A stretch of 64,000 bases of DNA from Ardenticatena maritima (GTDB taxonomy: Bacteria > Chloroflexota > Anaerolineae > Ardenticatenales > Ardenticatenaceae), in contig NZ_LGKN01000003.1 in the NCBI RefSeq assembly GCF_001306175.1, forward strand, positions 682,001-746,000, given 5' to 3'. The notes under the pieces are model-generated. The model was not told the origin of the DNA, searched no databases, and saw only the letters and a list, made by a program, of their open reading frames with translations. Both the position numbers and the translations under genes were made by a program. This document shows positions 8,687 through 57,353 of this stretch, piece after piece; position 1 is the first letter of the stretch, and the number at the start of each line of letters is the position of its first letter.

Positions 8687-10786
8687 ATGCTCTCAGCCGA
8701 GCAGATGGTTCGGACAACGTGCCCCTACTGCGGTGTGGGGTGTCAGGTTGATTTGCATGTGCGTCAGGGGCGCATTTTTCGTGTGAGTGCGCCGTTTGAT
8801 ATCGCGCCCAATGAAGGGCGTTTGTGTGTCAAGGGGCGTTTTGGCACTGATTTTGTTCACCATCCCTCGCGGCTTACCACGCCGCTGATTCGCAAAGAGT
8901 TTGGCGTGCTGCCGCGGCATCCTATGGGGCTGGACGGTTTTCGTGAAGCGACGTGGGATGAAGCCCTTGACCTGGCGGCGGAACAGTTCGCGGAGATTGT
9001 ACGCACACGTGGGGGAGATGCGATTGGCACCTTCTGCTCGGCAAAGGCAACCAACGAAGATACGTATGTCTTCCAGAAGTTTGTGCGGGCTGTCTTGGGG
9101 ACGAACAACATTGACCATTGTGCGCGGCTTTGCCATGCGGCGTCGGTGGTGGCGTTGCAAACGGCAATCGGTTCGTCCGCTATGTCGAATTCGATTGCCG
9201 AGATGAAGCACCTCGATGTTTTCATCGTGACAGGTTCCAACACAACCGAAACTCACCCCGTCATCAGCACGTTCATGCGCGAGGCGGTGGTTCACAACGG
9301 CGCGAAGTTGATTGTCGTGGACCCACGCGGCATTGAGATGACGCAGTTTGCTACGTTGTGGCTGCGTCAGCGTCCCGGCACGGATGTGGCGGTCTTTCAG
9401 GCGATGGCGCAGGTGATTGTATCGGAGGGGTTGTATAACCGCGCGTTCATTGAGGCGCGTACAGAAGGCTTTGAGGCATACGCTGAAGCCATTATGGAAT
9501 GTACGCCGGAGTGGGCGGAGCGTATTTCAGGCGTGCCTGCTGAGCATATTCGGGAAGCGGCGCGGCTTTATGCAACCGCCAAGGCAGGGGCGATTTACTG
9601 GGGCATGGGGATTAGCCAAAGCGTCCACGGGACTGAGAATGCGCTGGCGCTTGCCAATCTGGCGTTGCTAACGGGGCATGTTGGACGTCCAGGCACTGGG
9701 CTCAATCCGTTGCGTGGGCAGAACAACGTGCAGGGGTGCTCTGATTCGGGTGGGTTACCCAATGTGTTCCCCGGTTATCAACGGGTTGACGATGATGCTG
9801 TGCGAGAACGGTTTGAGGCGGCGTGGGGGGTGTCGCTCAATCCCCAACCCGGCTTGACGACGATGGAGATGGCGTTTGCCGCTGAGGCGGGCGATATTGT
9901 GGCGTTTTATGTCATGGGTGAAAACCCGATGATGAGTGAGCCGAATTTGCGGCATGCGCGGCATATCATTGAGAATTTACCGTTTTTGTTGGTGCAGGAT
10001 ATTTTCCTGAACGAAACAGGAGCTTACGCCGATATTTTGTTGCCTGCGACCAGTTTTGCTGAAAAGGATGGGACGTTTACGAATTCGGACCGGCGAGTGC
10101 AGCGTGTACGTCGGGCGGTGCCTGCACCGGGGGATGCGCGGGATGATTGGGTGATTTTGTGTGAGTTGGCGCGTCGGGTTGAGCAGAAATTGGGGCGTGC
10201 CAGGAGTGCCGGTTTTGCTTTTGCGTCGCCTGAGGAGATTTGGGATGAGATGGCTCGGCTGACGCCGCCCTTCCAGGGGATTTCGTATGCGCGTATTGCT
10301 CGCGAGGGGGGTGTTCACTGGCCATGCCCAACGCCCGACCATCCCGGTTCACCCTATTTGTTCGCTGAAACATTCCCACGCGGACGGGGGCAGTTTGTGC
10401 CTTTGCAGTATCGCCCCTCAGCTGAGTTGCCTGATGACGAATACCCCTTCATTCTTTCAACAGGGCGTGTGCTCTACCACTGGCATGGCGGCACGCTGAC
10501 ACGGCGCTCCAAGCTTGATGACATTTACCCTGAGGCGACGGTGGAAATTCACCCTGAGGATGCCGCTATGTTGGGGGTCAAGCATGGTGAGCGTGTGCGG
10601 GTGCGCTCGCGGCGTGGCGAGATTGTTGTGCGGGTAGCGGTGACGGCGCGCTCGCCGCGTGGTGTGGTGTTTATCCCGTTCCACTTTGCAGAGGCTGCGG
10701 CGAACGAGTTGACGATTGACGCTCTTGACCCGCAAGCGAAAATTCCGGATTACAAGGTCTGTGCTGTGGCGGTCGAACCGCTGTGA
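8687..10786 (+). CDS. fdhA: Formate dehydrogenase catalytic subunit, molybdopterin type with Cys in the active site
   Basis: This 699-residue member of the DMSO-reductase superfamily oxidises formate to CO2 (or the reverse) at a bis-MGD Mo or W centre. The N-terminal [4Fe-4S] site is CPYCGVGC plus a distal Cys in RLCVKGRFG. The active site reads HCARLCHAAS, with Cys149 followed by His150; Cys replaces the selenocysteine of FdhF-type enzymes. The C-terminal MoCo-dinucleotide binding domain is complete (near STGRVLYHWHGGTLTRRS). No Tat signal, so cytoplasmic. AAGGAGGAAGAGGT precedes the ATG. Last gene of a four-gene operon ending in a terminator. A related oxidoreductase substrate is possible, but the diaphorase partners favour formate. 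Confidence 0.93.
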   Translation: MLSAEQMVRTTCPYCGVGCQVDLHVRQGRIFRVSAPFDIAPNEGRLCVKGRFGTDFVHHPSRLTTPLIRKEFGVLPRHPMGLDGFREATWDEALDLAAEQFAEIVRTRGGDAIGTFCSAKATNEDTYVFQKFVRAVLGTNNIDHCARLCHAASVVALQTAIGSSAMSNSIAEMKHLDVFIVTGSNTTETHPVISTFMREAVVHNGAKLIVVDPRGIEMTQFATLWLRQRPGTDVAVFQAMAQVIVSEGLYNRAFIEARTEGFEAYAEAIMECTPEWAERISGVPAEHIREAARLYATAKAGAIYWGMGISQSVHGTENALALANLALLTGHVGRPGTGLNPLRGQNNVQGCSDSGGLPNVFPGYQRVDDDAVRERFEAAWGVSLNPQPGLTTMEMAFAAEAGDIVAFYVMGENPMMSEPNLRHARHIIENLPFLLVQDIFLNETGAYADILLPATSFAEKDGTFTNSDRRVQRVRRAVPAPGDARDDWVILCELARRVEQKLGRARSAGFAFASPEEIWDEMARLTPPFQGISYARIAREGGVHWPCPTPDHPGSPYLFAETFPRGRGQFVPLQYRPSAELPDDEYPFILSTGRVLYHWHGGTLTRRSKLDDIYPEATVEIHPEDAAMLGVKHGERVRVRSRRGEIVVRVAVTARSPRGVVFIPFHFAEAAANELTIDALDPQAKIPDYKVCAVAVEPL

Positions 10787-51892: not shown

Positions 51893-51940
51893 TCGGCGAA
51901 AAGAGGCTTTACAGAGCACTACTTGTATCCCTGCCTCAAC

Positions 51941-51967
51941 AAAAAAAGCCCCTGGCGGGGCTTTTTT
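51941..51967 (-). terminator. Terminator directly after the selenoprotein gene
   Basis: AAAAAAGCCCC pairs with GGGGCTTTTTT around a 4-base loop. On the minus strand its 5' arm begins within the TAA stop at 51968-51966, which supports that TAA, not the TGA at 52010, as the real end of the gene. Confidence 0.9.
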
Positions 51968-53429
51968 ACTGCTCTTGCGAACCCTCCGGGTCCGCGAGGG
52001 GTTCCGCTCAGCAATACCAGGCTTCGGTCAAGCCGGGAACGACCGGAAAGCGCTGGTGGGTTTCGGGGTCGTCTTCTTCCAGCGGGCGCCCGGCGGTTTC
52101 GTATGCCAGGGCGCGAATACGCGCAAAGGTGGCTTCCGCCGGTTCGCCTGCCTGCGCGGCTTGCTGCACCACCGCCGACACCCGCTCCGCCAGGGCGTCC
52201 ATACGCGGGTCGGGATGTGTCCAGCGGTAGGTGAAGGCGTCGGCGTCCAGTTCGCCCAGCCACAAAGAGGCGTCCGGTGCATGGATGAGCGGCGACCCCG
52301 GCGGAATGAGCAGGCGAATGCTCAACTGCACAGGGTCCACATGGGGCACCAGCCCGCGCCGATGAATGAATTCAACCAATTCAATGTAATCATCTAATGA
52401 AGCCCAGGGCGTAAAGGGCAGGAAGGAGGGGCGCAAGGGGATACCCACTTCTTCCATAAGGTCGAAAACCGCGAAGACATCGGCGCGTGTGTGTCCTTTC
52501 TGCAAACGCGCCAGCACCACATCGCTCAATGATTCGACCGCCGAGACGATAAACGCACACCCCGCGGCACGCAATTCCGGGAGAAGCGCGGCATGTTTGA
52601 GCAAATGCTCAACCTTGATCGTCGCATCGAACGTCACATCAGGGAAGGCGGCATGCAAGGCGCGCACAATGCGCAAGGCATGCGTGGGACCATTGAAGAA
52701 ATCGGGGTCGCCAAAGGTGATATGGCGCGCACCAGCCGCCACTTGCTGCTCGATGTCGGCGAGCACCACATCCACCGGCAGAGCGAAAAAGCGCCCGCCA
52801 TACACCGGCGTAATGGGGCAGTGCGTGCAGGTATGCTTGCAGCCCCGCGTGGCTTCGGTGTAGCCCGCCGGCACCAGGCGGTCGCCAACGCGCAAATGGG
52901 CGTAGCGCGTCAACGGCGACAGGGAGGTGCGCTCGGGGCGCAGGAATGGCTGGCGGACAAGGTGCGCCTGAGGCGTTGTGCGCACCGCAGCGGGCGGCGT
53001 CTCGCCGGCTTCCAGCGCCTGGACAAGCGCCACCAGAGGCGTCTCGTACTCACCGCCAATCACGCTATCCGCGCAAGTTGCCAGCAAATGCTCGGCATTG
53101 AGCAGGGCGTAGTGCCCAAAGAAGCAAATATGCGCCTGCGGATTGACCGCGCGAACGCGCCGCGCCAGGGAGACGCCCAGCCGCATGGCGGTATGCATGG
53201 GCACCGAAATCGCCACGAACAACGCCTCTTCGATGTACGCATCTGGCAGCGGCTCCACGGCTGTATCCACGGCACGCGGGGCATACCCTGCGGCACGCAG
53301 CCACGCCAACGGCGACGCCAGCGCAAAGGGCTGGTGTCCCAATTCGTAGCACGAAAGCAACAAAACGGCGCCCGGCGCACGCCAGTTTTGCGAGAGCCGG
53401 GCTGGGGACGAAACAGGATTGGTGGACAT
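51966..53429 (-). CDS. CUAEP-tail radical SAM selenoprotein (TGA at 52010-52008 read as Sec)
   Basis: A 487-residue protein. Residues 1-150 resemble a B12-binding-like domain (VLLLSCYELGHQPFALASP; FVAISVPMHTAMRLG). The radical SAM cluster motif is CKHTCTHC near residue 230, and a Rossmann-like GDPDFF near 285. The frame meets TGA after WYC; the next codons read AEP and continue ten more to TAA at 51968-51966, giving WYC-U-AEP, the tail that defines the CUAEP/CCAEP radical SAM (seleno)protein family. A stem-loop directly after the TGA could be the SECIS, and a terminator follows the TAA. Sec would be residue 474. The ATG at 53429 is 2 bp after the upstream stop. Confidence 0.88.
51970..52007 (-). 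promoter_or_regulatory. Candidate bacterial SECIS stem-loop
   Basis: Immediately 3' of the TGA, GCGGAACCCCTC pairs with GAGGGTTCGC with two single-base bulges and a GCGGACCCG loop. Bacterial SECIS elements lie in this position; the loop sequence is not otherwise diagnostic. Confidence 0.6.
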
Positions 53430-53431
53430 GG

Positions 53432-53869
53432 CTACTTCTTGCGTGGAGCCGCACCCTTCACAGGAGGCGCCGCCGTACCGCGTTGGTCTTCGGGAATCCA
53501 CTCTTCGGGCATGATTTGGACATCGTGGAAGAGAAAGTATTCCATTTGTTCGCGCAAAAATTCGCGCGCCATGGGGTCGCCAAGGTTCAACCCATAATGG
53601 TTGATGAGAATGGTTTGATGTTCGCGCCACATATCAAACGCGGCTTGGGAGACCTGTTCATAAATTCGCTGGCCCAATTCACCAGGAAACGGTGGCCGCG
53701 CCAAGCCCGGCAATTCGCGGCGCAGTTTGGCGCAAAAGACAATGCGCCGACCCTGTTCATCAACACGCACAAAGCCGGGTTCGCGCTCCTCAGCCTGCGG
53801 TGTTTCGCTGCTTTGCGATGGCTTTTGTTCGTCTTCATCGCGATTGAAGAATTTTCCAAGTGGTGGCAT
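53432..53869 (-). CDS. YggX-like Fe(2+)-trafficking protein with an acidic N-terminal extension
   Basis: A 145-residue protein. Residues about 44-112 match YggX: RIVFCAKLRRELPGLARPPF with the conserved Cys, PGELGQRIYEQVSQAAFDMW, HQTILINHYGLNL and the C-terminal MEYFLF. YggX proteins are linked to iron handling and protection of iron-sulfur clusters from oxidation. The N-terminal 40 residues (charged, Gln/Ser/Glu-rich) and the basic Pro-rich C-terminus are extra. It stops 2 bp before the radical SAM selenoprotein, so the two are coupled; iron-sulfur protection would suit a radical SAM enzyme. ATG at 53869. Confidence 0.85.
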   Translation of the reverse strand: MPPLGKFFNRDEDEQKPSQSSETPQAEEREPGFVRVDEQGRRIVFCAKLRRELPGLARPPFPGELGQRIYEQVSQAAFDMWREHQTILINHYGLNLGDPMAREFLREQMEYFLFHDVQIMPEEWIPEDQRGTAAPPVKGAAPRKK

Positions 53870-53943
53870 AGTACATCCTCGCTTTCTTGAAATCAACATT
53901 TGGGCGTAGGGGCATTATAGAGGCGAACAGGAGGGCAACCAAA

Positions 53944-54846
53944 TTGGGATGGCAACCGCCGCGTGTCGTGTTCATGGGATTGCGTGGAACGTTTTCATAC
54001 GAGGTGCTGCGCGGGTTACTGCACGCCGGCATTCACGTGGTGGGCGTTTTTGTCGGGCACGCCACGCCTGAAGCGACGCCGTTTATCCCACTCTCCCCTC
54101 CGCCCCCCGTCGGCGACCTTCCGCTCCTCACCAGCCCCGTTACGCCCAGCATCATCACGCTGGCTTGGGAACATGGCATCCCCGTTTGGCAAGTGCACCA
54201 AAGCACCGCGCCCGCCGTTGCCGAACAGATTGCCGCCCTCCATCCCGACTTTCTCTGCGTCGCCTGCTTTGACCAACGACTTCCACGCGCCCTGCTGGCG
54301 CTTCCCGCCGGCGCGGCGCTCAACGTTCACCCCTCCCTGTTGCCCCGCCATCGAGGACCAGCGCCGCTGTTCTGGACGTTTCGGGCGAACGAACGTTTGA
54401 CGGGCGTCAGTGTTCATGTGATGACTGAACATCTTGACGCCGGCGCGCTTGTCGCGCAACAAGCCATTGCCATCGTAGAAGGGCAGCGCGCTTCCATAAT
54501 AGAACGCACATGCGCCCGCGTCGGGGGGCGGCTTTTGGCGCATGTTGTACGCACATGGCCGCACTTGACGCCAACACCCCAAGACGAAAGCCTTGCCACA
54601 TACGAAGCATGGCCACAGCCAGACCACTTTCACATTCCGCACACATGGAGCGCCGCACACGCTTTCTTTTTCATGCGCGGCGTCGCTGAATGGGGCGTTC
54701 CCTTCACCATTGAAACACCGCACGGTCCCGTACACGCGCATGACGCCACAGGCTACCGCCTCTCTCAGTCTCAGCACCCCTCTGGTCGCTCGCCCGCCAA
54801 TACACGCGCCATCCCTCTGGCCGACGGCGTCCTTTTCATAGCGTGA
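53944..54846 (+). CDS. Formyltransferase-family protein (Fmt-like)
   Basis: A 300-residue protein of the 10-formyl-THF transferase fold. RVVFMGLRGTFSYEVLRGLL starts the Rossmann-like domain; LNVHPSLLPRHRGPAP holds the catalytic Asn and His, and HLDAGALVAQQ the Asp. I chose the TTG at 53944 because AGGAGGG lies 8 bases upstream and the first beta strand must be included; the ATG at 53974 would cut it. The C-terminal domain differs from true methionyl-tRNA formyltransferase, so the acceptor may be another amine. It is divergent from the YggX-like gene. Confidence 0.82.
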   Translation: MGWQPPRVVFMGLRGTFSYEVLRGLLHAGIHVVGVFVGHATPEATPFIPLSPPPPVGDLPLLTSPVTPSIITLAWEHGIPVWQVHQSTAPAVAEQIAALHPDFLCVACFDQRLPRALLALPAGAALNVHPSLLPRHRGPAPLFWTFRANERLTGVSVHVMTEHLDAGALVAQQAIAIVEGQRASIIERTCARVGGRLLAHVVRTWPHLTPTPQDESLATYEAWPQPDHFHIPHTWSAAHAFFFMRGVAEWGVPFTIETPHGPVHAHDATGYRLSQSQHPSGRSPANTRAIPLADGVLFIA

Positions 54847-55021: not shown

Positions 55022-55175
55022 AGACAAAGGATGAAACGCCGTATAACACAACACATTTTCCAAGCGCATACGCATCATAACAATCTACCTGTTGTGTTGC
55101 AAGCCGTTTTTGGTCGTTCCCCCCCATTTGTCGTTTCTTTCCACGTCGTTTACACAACTAAATAGGAGGTCTTCA

Positions 55176-57353
55176 ATGAAGCGTCTCAGGCTATCACTAC
55201 TTTTTGCATTGGCGTTGTTGCTCTTCCTCGCACCAACGCGCTTTCCTGCACCGTCGGTCACTGCGACCGAACCCGTCGAGGTTATTGTCCAGGCCGGAAG
55301 CGCGGATGAAGCCGCTACCTTGGCCGCTCTGGCAGGGGGTGATATTGTCCGCGAACTTGGCATTATTGATGCGGTCGTTGTGCGTATTGCGCCTGACCGC
55401 GTAGAGGCCTTGCGTCAAACGCCGGGCATCACATCGGTTTGGGAAAACACCACTGTGCGCATTGCCGCCCGCCCTGCCGACAAGGATGACGATGACGACG
55501 ATGATGAAAAGGGCGAGACGTTGCACACGCCATCCGATACGTTGGTGGTGCATCCCTTGCACCAGGCGGGTATCACGGGGCGTGGTGTCACTGTCGCCAT
55601 TGTGGACTCCGGGTTGGCGGAATTCCCCAAACTGAAACCATCCATGAAAGGCCGCCCCGAAGGCGCGCCGAACGATGGCAGTCTCTTCTATCAAAACAAG
55701 AAGACCGGGCAATTCGTCCTCTACAAAGACTTTGTTGACCCCGACGCCAAAAAGAGCCAGGACCCCGTCGGTCACGGGACGCATGTCGCCGGCATCATTG
55801 CCAACGCCGACGTGCTGGACGATGACGTGGCGGATGAAAAGTTTGCCGGTATCGCGCCGGAAGCCAACTTGGTGATTGCACGCGCCATTGGGGCGGACGG
55901 CGCCGGCACGTATGCTGACGTCATCGCCGCCATTGACTGGATCGTCTCCATGAAGGACGTGTACGGCATTGACGTCCTCAACCTTTCGATTACCAGTGAC
56001 GTCAAAGGGCCTTACTGGATTGACCCGCTGAACCAGGCCGTCATGCGTGCTTGGGCGGCTGGCATTGTGGTTGTCGCCGCGGCGGGGAACAACGGCCCCG
56101 AGCCACTGAGCGTTACCGCTCCCGGCAACGTGCCTTACGTCATTACCGTTGGGGCGTACCGTGAAGGCATCCACGCGGCTGGTGGGCGCGCTGAATTGAC
56201 CGACTACTCAGGGCGCGGCCCGACGGAATCGCGCTTTGTGAAGCCCGACGTCATCGCGCCCGGTGTGAAAATTTACGCGCCGATGCCTGTTGACGCCTCG
56301 CTCACCGAGACCGAATCCGGGCAATATGCTGTCAAGGGGCATTTCCGCCTCGCCGGGAAAAAAGTGCCGCATGTGAAGTACTACCCGCTTTCGGGGACTT
56401 CAATGGCAACGGCTGAGGTCAGCGGTGTTGTGGCGCTCATTTTGCAACAGCACCCCGAACTGACCAACGACCAGGTGAAAGGGCGCTTGATGCGCACCGC
56501 CGAACGTGCAATTCGCATTGATGGCCAACACCTGTACAGTGTTTGGGAACAAGGCGCTGGCCGCGTGAATGCGTTGCTCGCCGTCCTCGCACCCGACGTT
56601 CCCTTCGTAGCCAACCAAGGCATGGATGCAGCTGCTGACGCTGTCATTGACGGCACACACTACTTGGGCCCGACAGCGTACACGCCGGAACAAGGCTACT
56701 TCATCGTTGGGAAAACTGAATATCCGTATCTGGCCTGGGATGGAACCATCTCGACCTATAATGGTGAATATACGTGGCTTGGCGATTACTCTTTCGTGAG
56801 TGAATGGGCATTTCTCGGTGAATGGGCGTTCTTGGGAGATTACGATTTTCTCCACGATGAAGCATTTTTGAACGATTACTCGCTTCTGAGTGAATGGGCA
56901 TTCCTCGGTGAATGGGCGTTCTTAGGCGATGAAGTCAATCTGAATGAATGGGCATTCTTGGGAGAATGGGCATTCCTCGGCGAATGGGCGTTCTTAGGCA
57001 ATCAAATCAATCCGAGCGAATGGGCATTCTTAGGTGAGTGGGCATTCCTTGGTGAATGGGCGTTCTTGGGAGAATGGGCATTCCTTGGACAATATGCTTA
57101 CAATAGTGAGTGGGCATTCTTAGGCGATTATGTTGACTTAAGTGAGTGGGCATTCCTCGGTGAATGGGCATTTTTAGGTGATACCACGTTGCTAGGAGAT
57201 GCAGCACTTCTAAGCGAATGGGCATTCTTGGGAGAATGGGCATTTCTCGGCGAATGGGCGTTCTTAGGCAATCAAATCAATCCGAGCGAATGGGCATTCT
57301 TAGGTGAGTGGGCATTCCTCGGCGTCACCATTGGCGTCTTGCCATCGCCCTAA
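55176..57353 (+). CDS. Secreted subtilisin-like protease with a C-terminal EWAFLG repeat array
   Basis: A 725-residue exported serine protease. Signal peptide (about 1-30), an inhibitor-I9-like propeptide (about 32-100), then an Asp/Glu-rich stretch and the S8 domain: Asp144 (VAIVDSG), His200 (GHGTHVAG) and Ser409 (SGTSMATAEV), with the oxyanion Asn in AAAGNNGPE. Residues about 542-717 are a hexad array in which WAFLG occurs 19 times, with polar spacers such as DEVNLN and NQINPS. The array is probably a beta-structured surface module. It sits directly behind a cyclic-di-GMP riboswitch. TAGGAGGT precedes the ATG at 55176. Single-gene unit. Confidence 0.92.
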   Translation: MKRLRLSLLFALALLLFLAPTRFPAPSVTATEPVEVIVQAGSADEAATLAALAGGDIVRELGIIDAVVVRIAPDRVEALRQTPGITSVWENTTVRIAARPADKDDDDDDDEKGETLHTPSDTLVVHPLHQAGITGRGVTVAIVDSGLAEFPKLKPSMKGRPEGAPNDGSLFYQNKKTGQFVLYKDFVDPDAKKSQDPVGHGTHVAGIIANADVLDDDVADEKFAGIAPEANLVIARAIGADGAGTYADVIAAIDWIVSMKDVYGIDVLNLSITSDVKGPYWIDPLNQAVMRAWAAGIVVVAAAGNNGPEPLSVTAPGNVPYVITVGAYREGIHAAGGRAELTDYSGRGPTESRFVKPDVIAPGVKIYAPMPVDASLTETESGQYAVKGHFRLAGKKVPHVKYYPLSGTSMATAEVSGVVALILQQHPELTNDQVKGRLMRTAERAIRIDGQHLYSVWEQGAGRVNALLAVLAPDVPFVANQGMDAAADAVIDGTHYLGPTAYTPEQGYFIVGKTEYPYLAWDGTISTYNGEYTWLGDYSFVSEWAFLGEWAFLGDYDFLHDEAFLNDYSLLSEWAFLGEWAFLGDEVNLNEWAFLGEWAFLGEWAFLGNQINPSEWAFLGEWAFLGEWAFLGEWAFLGQYAYNSEWAFLGDYVDLSEWAFLGEWAFLGDTTLLGDAALLSEWAFLGEWAFLGEWAFLGNQINPSEWAFLGEWAFLGVTIGVLPSP
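56799..57326 (+). repeat. Coding EWAFLG hexad repeat array
   Basis: An 18-base unit (consensus GAATGGGCATTCTTAGGT-like) encodes EWAFLG. The array includes a longer internal duplication: the ~100 bp at about 56946-57046 recur at 57219-57319 almost unchanged, including the NQINPS spacer. This points to expansion by unequal recombination. Confidence 0.9.

Follow-up and report, generated by a model that had tools for sequence, protein, structure and literature searches.

An In-Frame TGA Predicted to Encode Selenocysteine in a CUAEP-Tail Radical SAM Gene of Ardenticatena maritima, and the Genes That Recur beside It

Introduction

ArsL, a radical SAM enzyme of arsinothricin biosynthesis, has been proposed to move the 3-amino-3-carboxypropyl (ACP) group of SAM to arsenite (PMC8552651). 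A further family is covered by the NCBIfam model NF040546, "CUAEP/CCAEP-tail radical SAM (seleno)protein", which carries a curated cut-off of 500 bits and names no function. The 2026 inventory, which counts 119 selenoprotein families (PMC13188914), does not list it, and no mention of CUAEP or CCAEP was found in the literature searched. The gene described here lies in a window of 64,000 nucleotides (the whole stretch of DNA that was analysed) from Ardenticatena maritima and, judged from its sequence, is a new member of this family already modelled by NCBI.

Reading Frame and Family Membership

The CUAEP gene occupies positions 51966..53429 of the minus strand. Translation from 53429 to 51966 meets a sole in-frame TGA, codon 474 (52008..52010, minus strand), which adjoins Cys473. 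Ordinary gene calling of 51966-53429 stops at this codon, so that the protein would end at WYC, exactly as the sequence-only reading had described. With TGA taken as Sec, the product has 487 residues and the C-terminus ...LTEAWYC-U-AEPLADPEGSQEQ; the read-through continues with AEP and ten more codons to the TAA at 51966-51968, and this claim of the same reading is likewise borne out by the translation. The full protein matches NF040546 with 773.5 bits (E 7e-233) over residues 22-482 and model positions 1-466 of 468, a match that spans the TGA. The Pfam Radical_SAM match (46.9 bits) is above its cut-off, and the CxxxCxxC cluster motif is CKHTCTHC (residues 197-204), with C197, C201 and C204 invariant in 46 aligned homologues; Cys27, which is extra with respect to ArsL, is invariant as well. 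The closest relative outside the source genome belongs to Ardenticatena sp. (86% identity), and the same sequence is also present in a genome from the genus of the source. The AlphaFold model has a pLDDT of 91.7, with the CU tail located in its weak end (mean of 53 for block 471-480).

Ordinary annotation truncates the CUAEP gene. In Thermomicrobium roseum (NC_011961.1, L133:7956-9392), the listed CUAEP coding sequence ends 27 nt before the protein match does, which is consistent with truncation at the TGA.

Evidence for Selenocysteine

Homologous loci were collected from one scan of a genome collection and a scan of 100 relatives, and the tail is visible in 86 of them, that of the window included. 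In all 86, from about eleven phyla, it reads [WF][YF]C-(TGA or TGC/TGT)-AEP. The codon aligned with 474 is TGA in 70 loci and a Cys codon (TGC/TGT) in 16, and a tree for which that column was left out requires seven changes between Sec and Cys. It had been claimed that CUAEP is the tail of a radical SAM family with Cys or Sec at this position, and an alignment with CCAEP-tail homologues had been proposed; such homologues exist, they align, and they uphold the claim. Among 46 aligned sequences, L467, E469, W471, C473, C/U474, A475, E476 and P477 are invariant, and the AEP codons past the TGA vary in their third positions (GCG/GCA/GCC, GAG/GAA, CCN). The family is spread over many phyla and Sec is kept in most members found, yet it is absent from the inventory. 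The Cys forms of Thermogemmatispora (L059, L060, L066, L067, L068) have longer tails with an extra CC pair near the end, for example ...SDCCGVGH and ...SGCCSVGH.

The stem-loop that had been noticed 3' of the TGA corresponds to a SECIS-like hairpin at 51977..51995 (minus strand), in which 51995-51989 pair with 51983-51977 around the loop 51988-51984 (CGGAG). It has 7-8 bp with a CGGAG or GGA loop, starts 12 nt past the TGA, and places the loop 19 nt from the TGA. Folded as a single sequence, it is modestly better than its shuffles (z -1.91). Covariation was tested on 43 distinct sequences for the stem 15-21/27-33, counting the T of TGA as 0. Standard pairs fill 87.4% of the cells, compared with 21.9-52.8% in slid registers; 56 cells are double-changed, versus 21.9 +/- 5.9 in shuffles (0/500), and the covariation score is 0.49 versus 0.26. 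Changes on both sides are found in six of the seven pairs. The loop reads AGUUN in most homologues and CGGAG in the window, with a G within the first two positions. In the Cys forms, pairing at this site is 56%, and the hairpin energy is -6.6 kcal/mol versus -12.6 kcal/mol in the Sec forms, in a comparison that ignores kinship. The 43-sequence comparison is decisive, and the post-TGA hairpin is real and conserved; the earlier proposal to check this element is in this way answered by covariation.

The source genome (98.6% complete) contains the selenocysteine machinery that the sequence-only reading had implied: a tRNA-Sec (selC; 70 bits, anticodon TCA) and profile matches to SelA (561 bits), SelB (355 bits) and SelD (367 bits). 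As also stated there, the formate dehydrogenase gene of the window (8714-10774) lacks an in-frame TGA and uses Cys, reading ARLCHAAS. SelD of the source genome (L139, G000 C5:535771-536703) is itself a selenoprotein, with an in-frame TGA in the context ACAG-TGA-ASKVG. The machinery was further surveyed in 50 genomes with a CUAEP gene, 34 with TGA and 16 with Cys. SelA is above its cut-off in 31 of the 34 TGA genomes and in 12 of the 16 Cys genomes. Two of the three remaining TGA genomes have SelB, and in the third, a MAG, the sole match is a SelA fragment at the edge of a contig. Among the four remaining Cys genomes, SelB is present in one, and both proteins are missing from the other three (two Nitrospirota, one Ignavibacteriota). 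Except for the MAG with the SelA fragment, genomes with neither SelA nor SelB at cut-off are of the Cys form only, taking into account that absence from a MAG can reflect incompleteness. The presence of SelA was considered as a divider of the Sec and Cys forms and rejected, because 12 of the 16 Cys genomes retain it.

Two other readings of TGA474 have to be weighed against these data. If it were an ordinary stop, the protein would end at WYC and the rest would be non-coding up to the terminator; this agrees with standard gene calling, with the shortness of the tail (13 codons) and with the modest single-sequence fold, but it leaves unexplained the AEP that is invariant in 46 sequences with third positions varying like coding DNA, the 16 homologues with a Cys codon at the site, and the covarying hairpin, and is very improbable. 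Decoding as Trp, for which there is precedent since some bacteria read TGA in this way, or low-level readthrough, is more improbable still: the non-TGA homologues all carry Cys at this codon and never Trp, tRNA-Sec, SelA, SelB and SelD are present, and the hairpin has bacterial SECIS geometry. Owing to the exchange of TGA and Cys at one codon, the coding conservation past the TGA, the covarying SECIS and the complete Sec machinery, TGA474 is assigned to selenocysteine. It is therefore predicted, with near certainty, that 51966-53429 encodes an NF040546 radical SAM selenoprotein with Sec474. The central claim of the sequence-only reading is confirmed in this sense: selB and selC are both found in the genome, and homologues run on past WYC.

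Gene Neighborhood and Recurrent Partners

Directly 3' of the gene, and abutting the TAA (51966-51968) as had been noted, a strong intrinsic-terminator-like hairpin is located at 51940..51967 of the minus strand (fold of 51942-51967: -17.6 kcal/mol, z -4.0), with a stem that ends in a U run. It is likely the terminator of the CUAEP gene. The hairpin was not picked up by a consensus terminator scan, in our opinion because part of the U run is taken up by the stem. On the upstream side, a gene for a YggX-family Fe(2+)-trafficking/oxidative damage protection protein (53432..53899, minus strand; Pfam Iron_traffic 113 bits, NF003817 122 bits) ends with a TAG 2 nt before the CUAEP ATG, and this proximity suggests that the two genes are translationally coupled in an operon. 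Next to it is a divergent formyltransferase-like gene (53887..54846, plus strand; Pfam Formyl_trans_N 93.7 bits), which scores 114 bits against Fmt, below the cut-off of 201.5; the TTG annotated as its start probably lies too far upstream. Beyond it, a subtilisin-like gene (55092-57353, plus strand) has a C-terminus that consists of many degenerate EWAFLGEWAFLG repeats in a row. On the other side of the CUAEP gene, a perfect 12/12 sigma-70-type promoter, TTGACA-17-TATAAT (51892-51864, minus strand), precedes a CoxG-like gene. A functional tie to this adjacent CoxG/CoxSML-like operon was set aside, since the terminator and the 12/12 promoter lie between them; the operon is also absent from the recurrent neighbors at other loci.

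Three kinds of gene co-occur with CUAEP in the fetched loci, namely those for a formyltransferase, for an ATP-grasp amino-acid ligase and for an iron or Fe-S protein, either YggX or Nfu; this is a new observation. The recurrent neighbors are formyltransferase-like (35 loci), YggX-family (29, directly upstream of CUAEP), ATP-grasp (24) and Nfu-type Fe-S carrier genes (13). The Nfu-type carriers are found in Rokubacteria, Acidobacteria, Poribacteria, Nitrospinota, Ignavibacteriota and others (L077, L091, L096, L099, L110; L109, L116-L118, L120, L121, L127, L131), as if Nfu replaced YggX, the Chloroflexota partner, as iron helper in other phyla. The ATP-grasp partner has LAL_C2, the C-terminal domain of L-amino-acid ligases, and shows a weak similarity to dipeptide ligases. 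Among 100 relatives, 7 have CUAEP, 8 have YggX and 9 have ATP-grasp (counted from matches below 1e-80). CUAEP and ATP-grasp are shared by 6 of them (Fisher p 5e-7), CUAEP and YggX by 5 (p 1.5e-5), and ATP-grasp and YggX by 7 (p 2e-8), p-values that are optimistic because the genomes are treated as independent. The pathway genes are adjacent to one another in some lineages only; in the source genome itself, the ATP-grasp gene is located at C3:829509-830786, about 80 kb past the end of the window. ArsB-like transporters flank the CUAEP cluster in 8 Ktedonobacterial loci only, which may be lineage synteny and nothing further. These co-occurring genes make an orphan database model a testable pathway.

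In one genome of the same class as that of the window (G017), the ATP-grasp L-amino-acid-ligase-like gene (L149:6930-8201, minus strand; G017 C20:40914-42185) has an in-frame TGA of its own, at codon 305, a position held by an otherwise invariant Cys (GG[LRY]C) in the rest of the family as found here. The TGA is followed by a perfect 9-bp hairpin with a GUU loop, and the TGA-to-loop distance of 19 nt is equal to the CUAEP spacing; no such hairpin was observed in the Cys-form ATP-grasp genes examined. G017 has SelB, and genes for YggX and a formyltransferase lie near the ATP-grasp gene; no CUAEP above cut-off was found among the candidates scored in this genome. Among 21 relatives with the gene, only G017 has the TGA. 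The gene is therefore put forward as a candidate new selenoprotein, on the sequence of one genome. We know of no other ATP-grasp selenoprotein; if the assignment is true, this second, apparently unlisted candidate would be the first known to us. An ATP-grasp entry is absent from the 119 families of the 2026 inventory (PMC13188914).

Possible Function

In all likelihood, SelB and Sec-tRNA(Sec) decode UGA474 as selenocysteine under the control of the hairpin that begins 12 nt further on, giving a protein with the invariant Cys-Sec-Ala-Glu-Pro and ten further residues at its end. For the chemistry, a tentative scheme can be outlined. The enzyme, acting like ArsL, would use SAM as the donor and transfer its ACP group to an acceptor that the Cys-Sec pair holds or activates; this acceptor may be a soft element, for instance arsenic. 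The amino acid formed in this way would be a substrate both for the co-occurring ATP-grasp enzyme, which ligates it, and for the formyltransferase, which adds an N-formyl group. YggX or Nfu would provide iron or Fe-S clusters, or protect them. ACP transfer is considered because the Cys-Cys of ArsL aligns with CU, because of the chemistry proposed for ArsL, and because of the ATP-grasp gene in Alicyclobacillus and the ArsB-like neighbors. On this kinship to ArsL, the CUAEP enzyme may be an aminocarboxypropyl-transferring radical SAM enzyme, an assignment that we hold with less than even confidence. The ArsL model (NF040542) is the next-best family, with 312.3 bits over residues 22-415, below its cut-off of 450.

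It is comparably conceivable, and again short of probable, that the protein is a selenoprotein but acts as a cobalamin-type radical SAM methyltransferase or as a dehydratase/isomerase rather than as an ACP transferase. The fold resembles B12-dependent methyltransferases and AprD4, the best structural matches being AprD4, OxsB, MgmA and TsrM (Z 24-27), and a weak match to a B12-binding domain is found; however, the latter (23.7 bits) is under the Pfam cut-off of 32.1, and by sequence the protein matches ArsL far better than it matches any of these families (312 bits versus at most 51.5). A sequence search of the PDB returns weak matches only (MgmA-type 9ccb, AprD4 6fd2). Alternatively, the tail and the iron-protein partner could serve the repair of iron or Fe-S stress instead of biosynthesis, in line with the YggX-family gene directly upstream in 29 loci and with the 13 loci from other phyla in which an Nfu-type carrier adjoins CUAEP. 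This is rather unlikely, as the ATP-grasp amino-acid-ligase and formyltransferase partners better fit small-molecule synthesis. Returning to biosynthesis by ACP transfer, we would suggest with due reserve that CUAEP could be the core of an undescribed pathway, present in about eleven phyla, whose product would be peptide-like, formylated and built on an aminocarboxypropyl unit, and possibly organo-metalloid. Sec would serve at two or more points of this pathway, one being CUAEP and another, in some lineages, the ATP-grasp ligase; this full picture is more doubtful than the ACP assignment.

Comparison with Known Systems

Compared with NF040546 members, the CUAEP protein is the same in full-length match, CUAEP tail and radical SAM motif, with no difference of note; it is a plain Sec-form member. 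GxxU (TIGR04167) and TrsS (NF045646) are also radical SAM proteins with Sec (PMC13188914), but they belong to different families and have different Sec positions. SaoL, SaoC, HgcA and MbdU, which are associated with metal or organometal chemistry (PMC13188914), have a vicinal Cys-Sec like that of CUAEP; the families differ and the motif alone is common.

ArsL (NF040542, arsinothricin biosynthesis; PMC8552651) is homologous, and the CxxxCxxC motif is common to both proteins. The identity is 32-33%, and the CUAEP protein is longer by about 45 residues ahead of its CU. Of the tail, only one pair aligns, namely the C-terminal Cys-Cys of ArsL with the Cys-Sec of CUAEP; the RCCLKC ending of ArsL is replaced by CUAEP and 10 residues, with AEP in place of LKC. 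No arsM/arsN genes and no genes for arsinothricin resistance or export are adjacent in the window or occur among the recurrent neighbor clusters. An ATP-grasp gene is likewise part of an ArsL-type cluster in Alicyclobacillus, and it is related to the CUAEP partner (23% identity, E 2e-18). Through its kinship to ArsL, CUAEP would link selenium to ArsL-type radical SAM chemistry.
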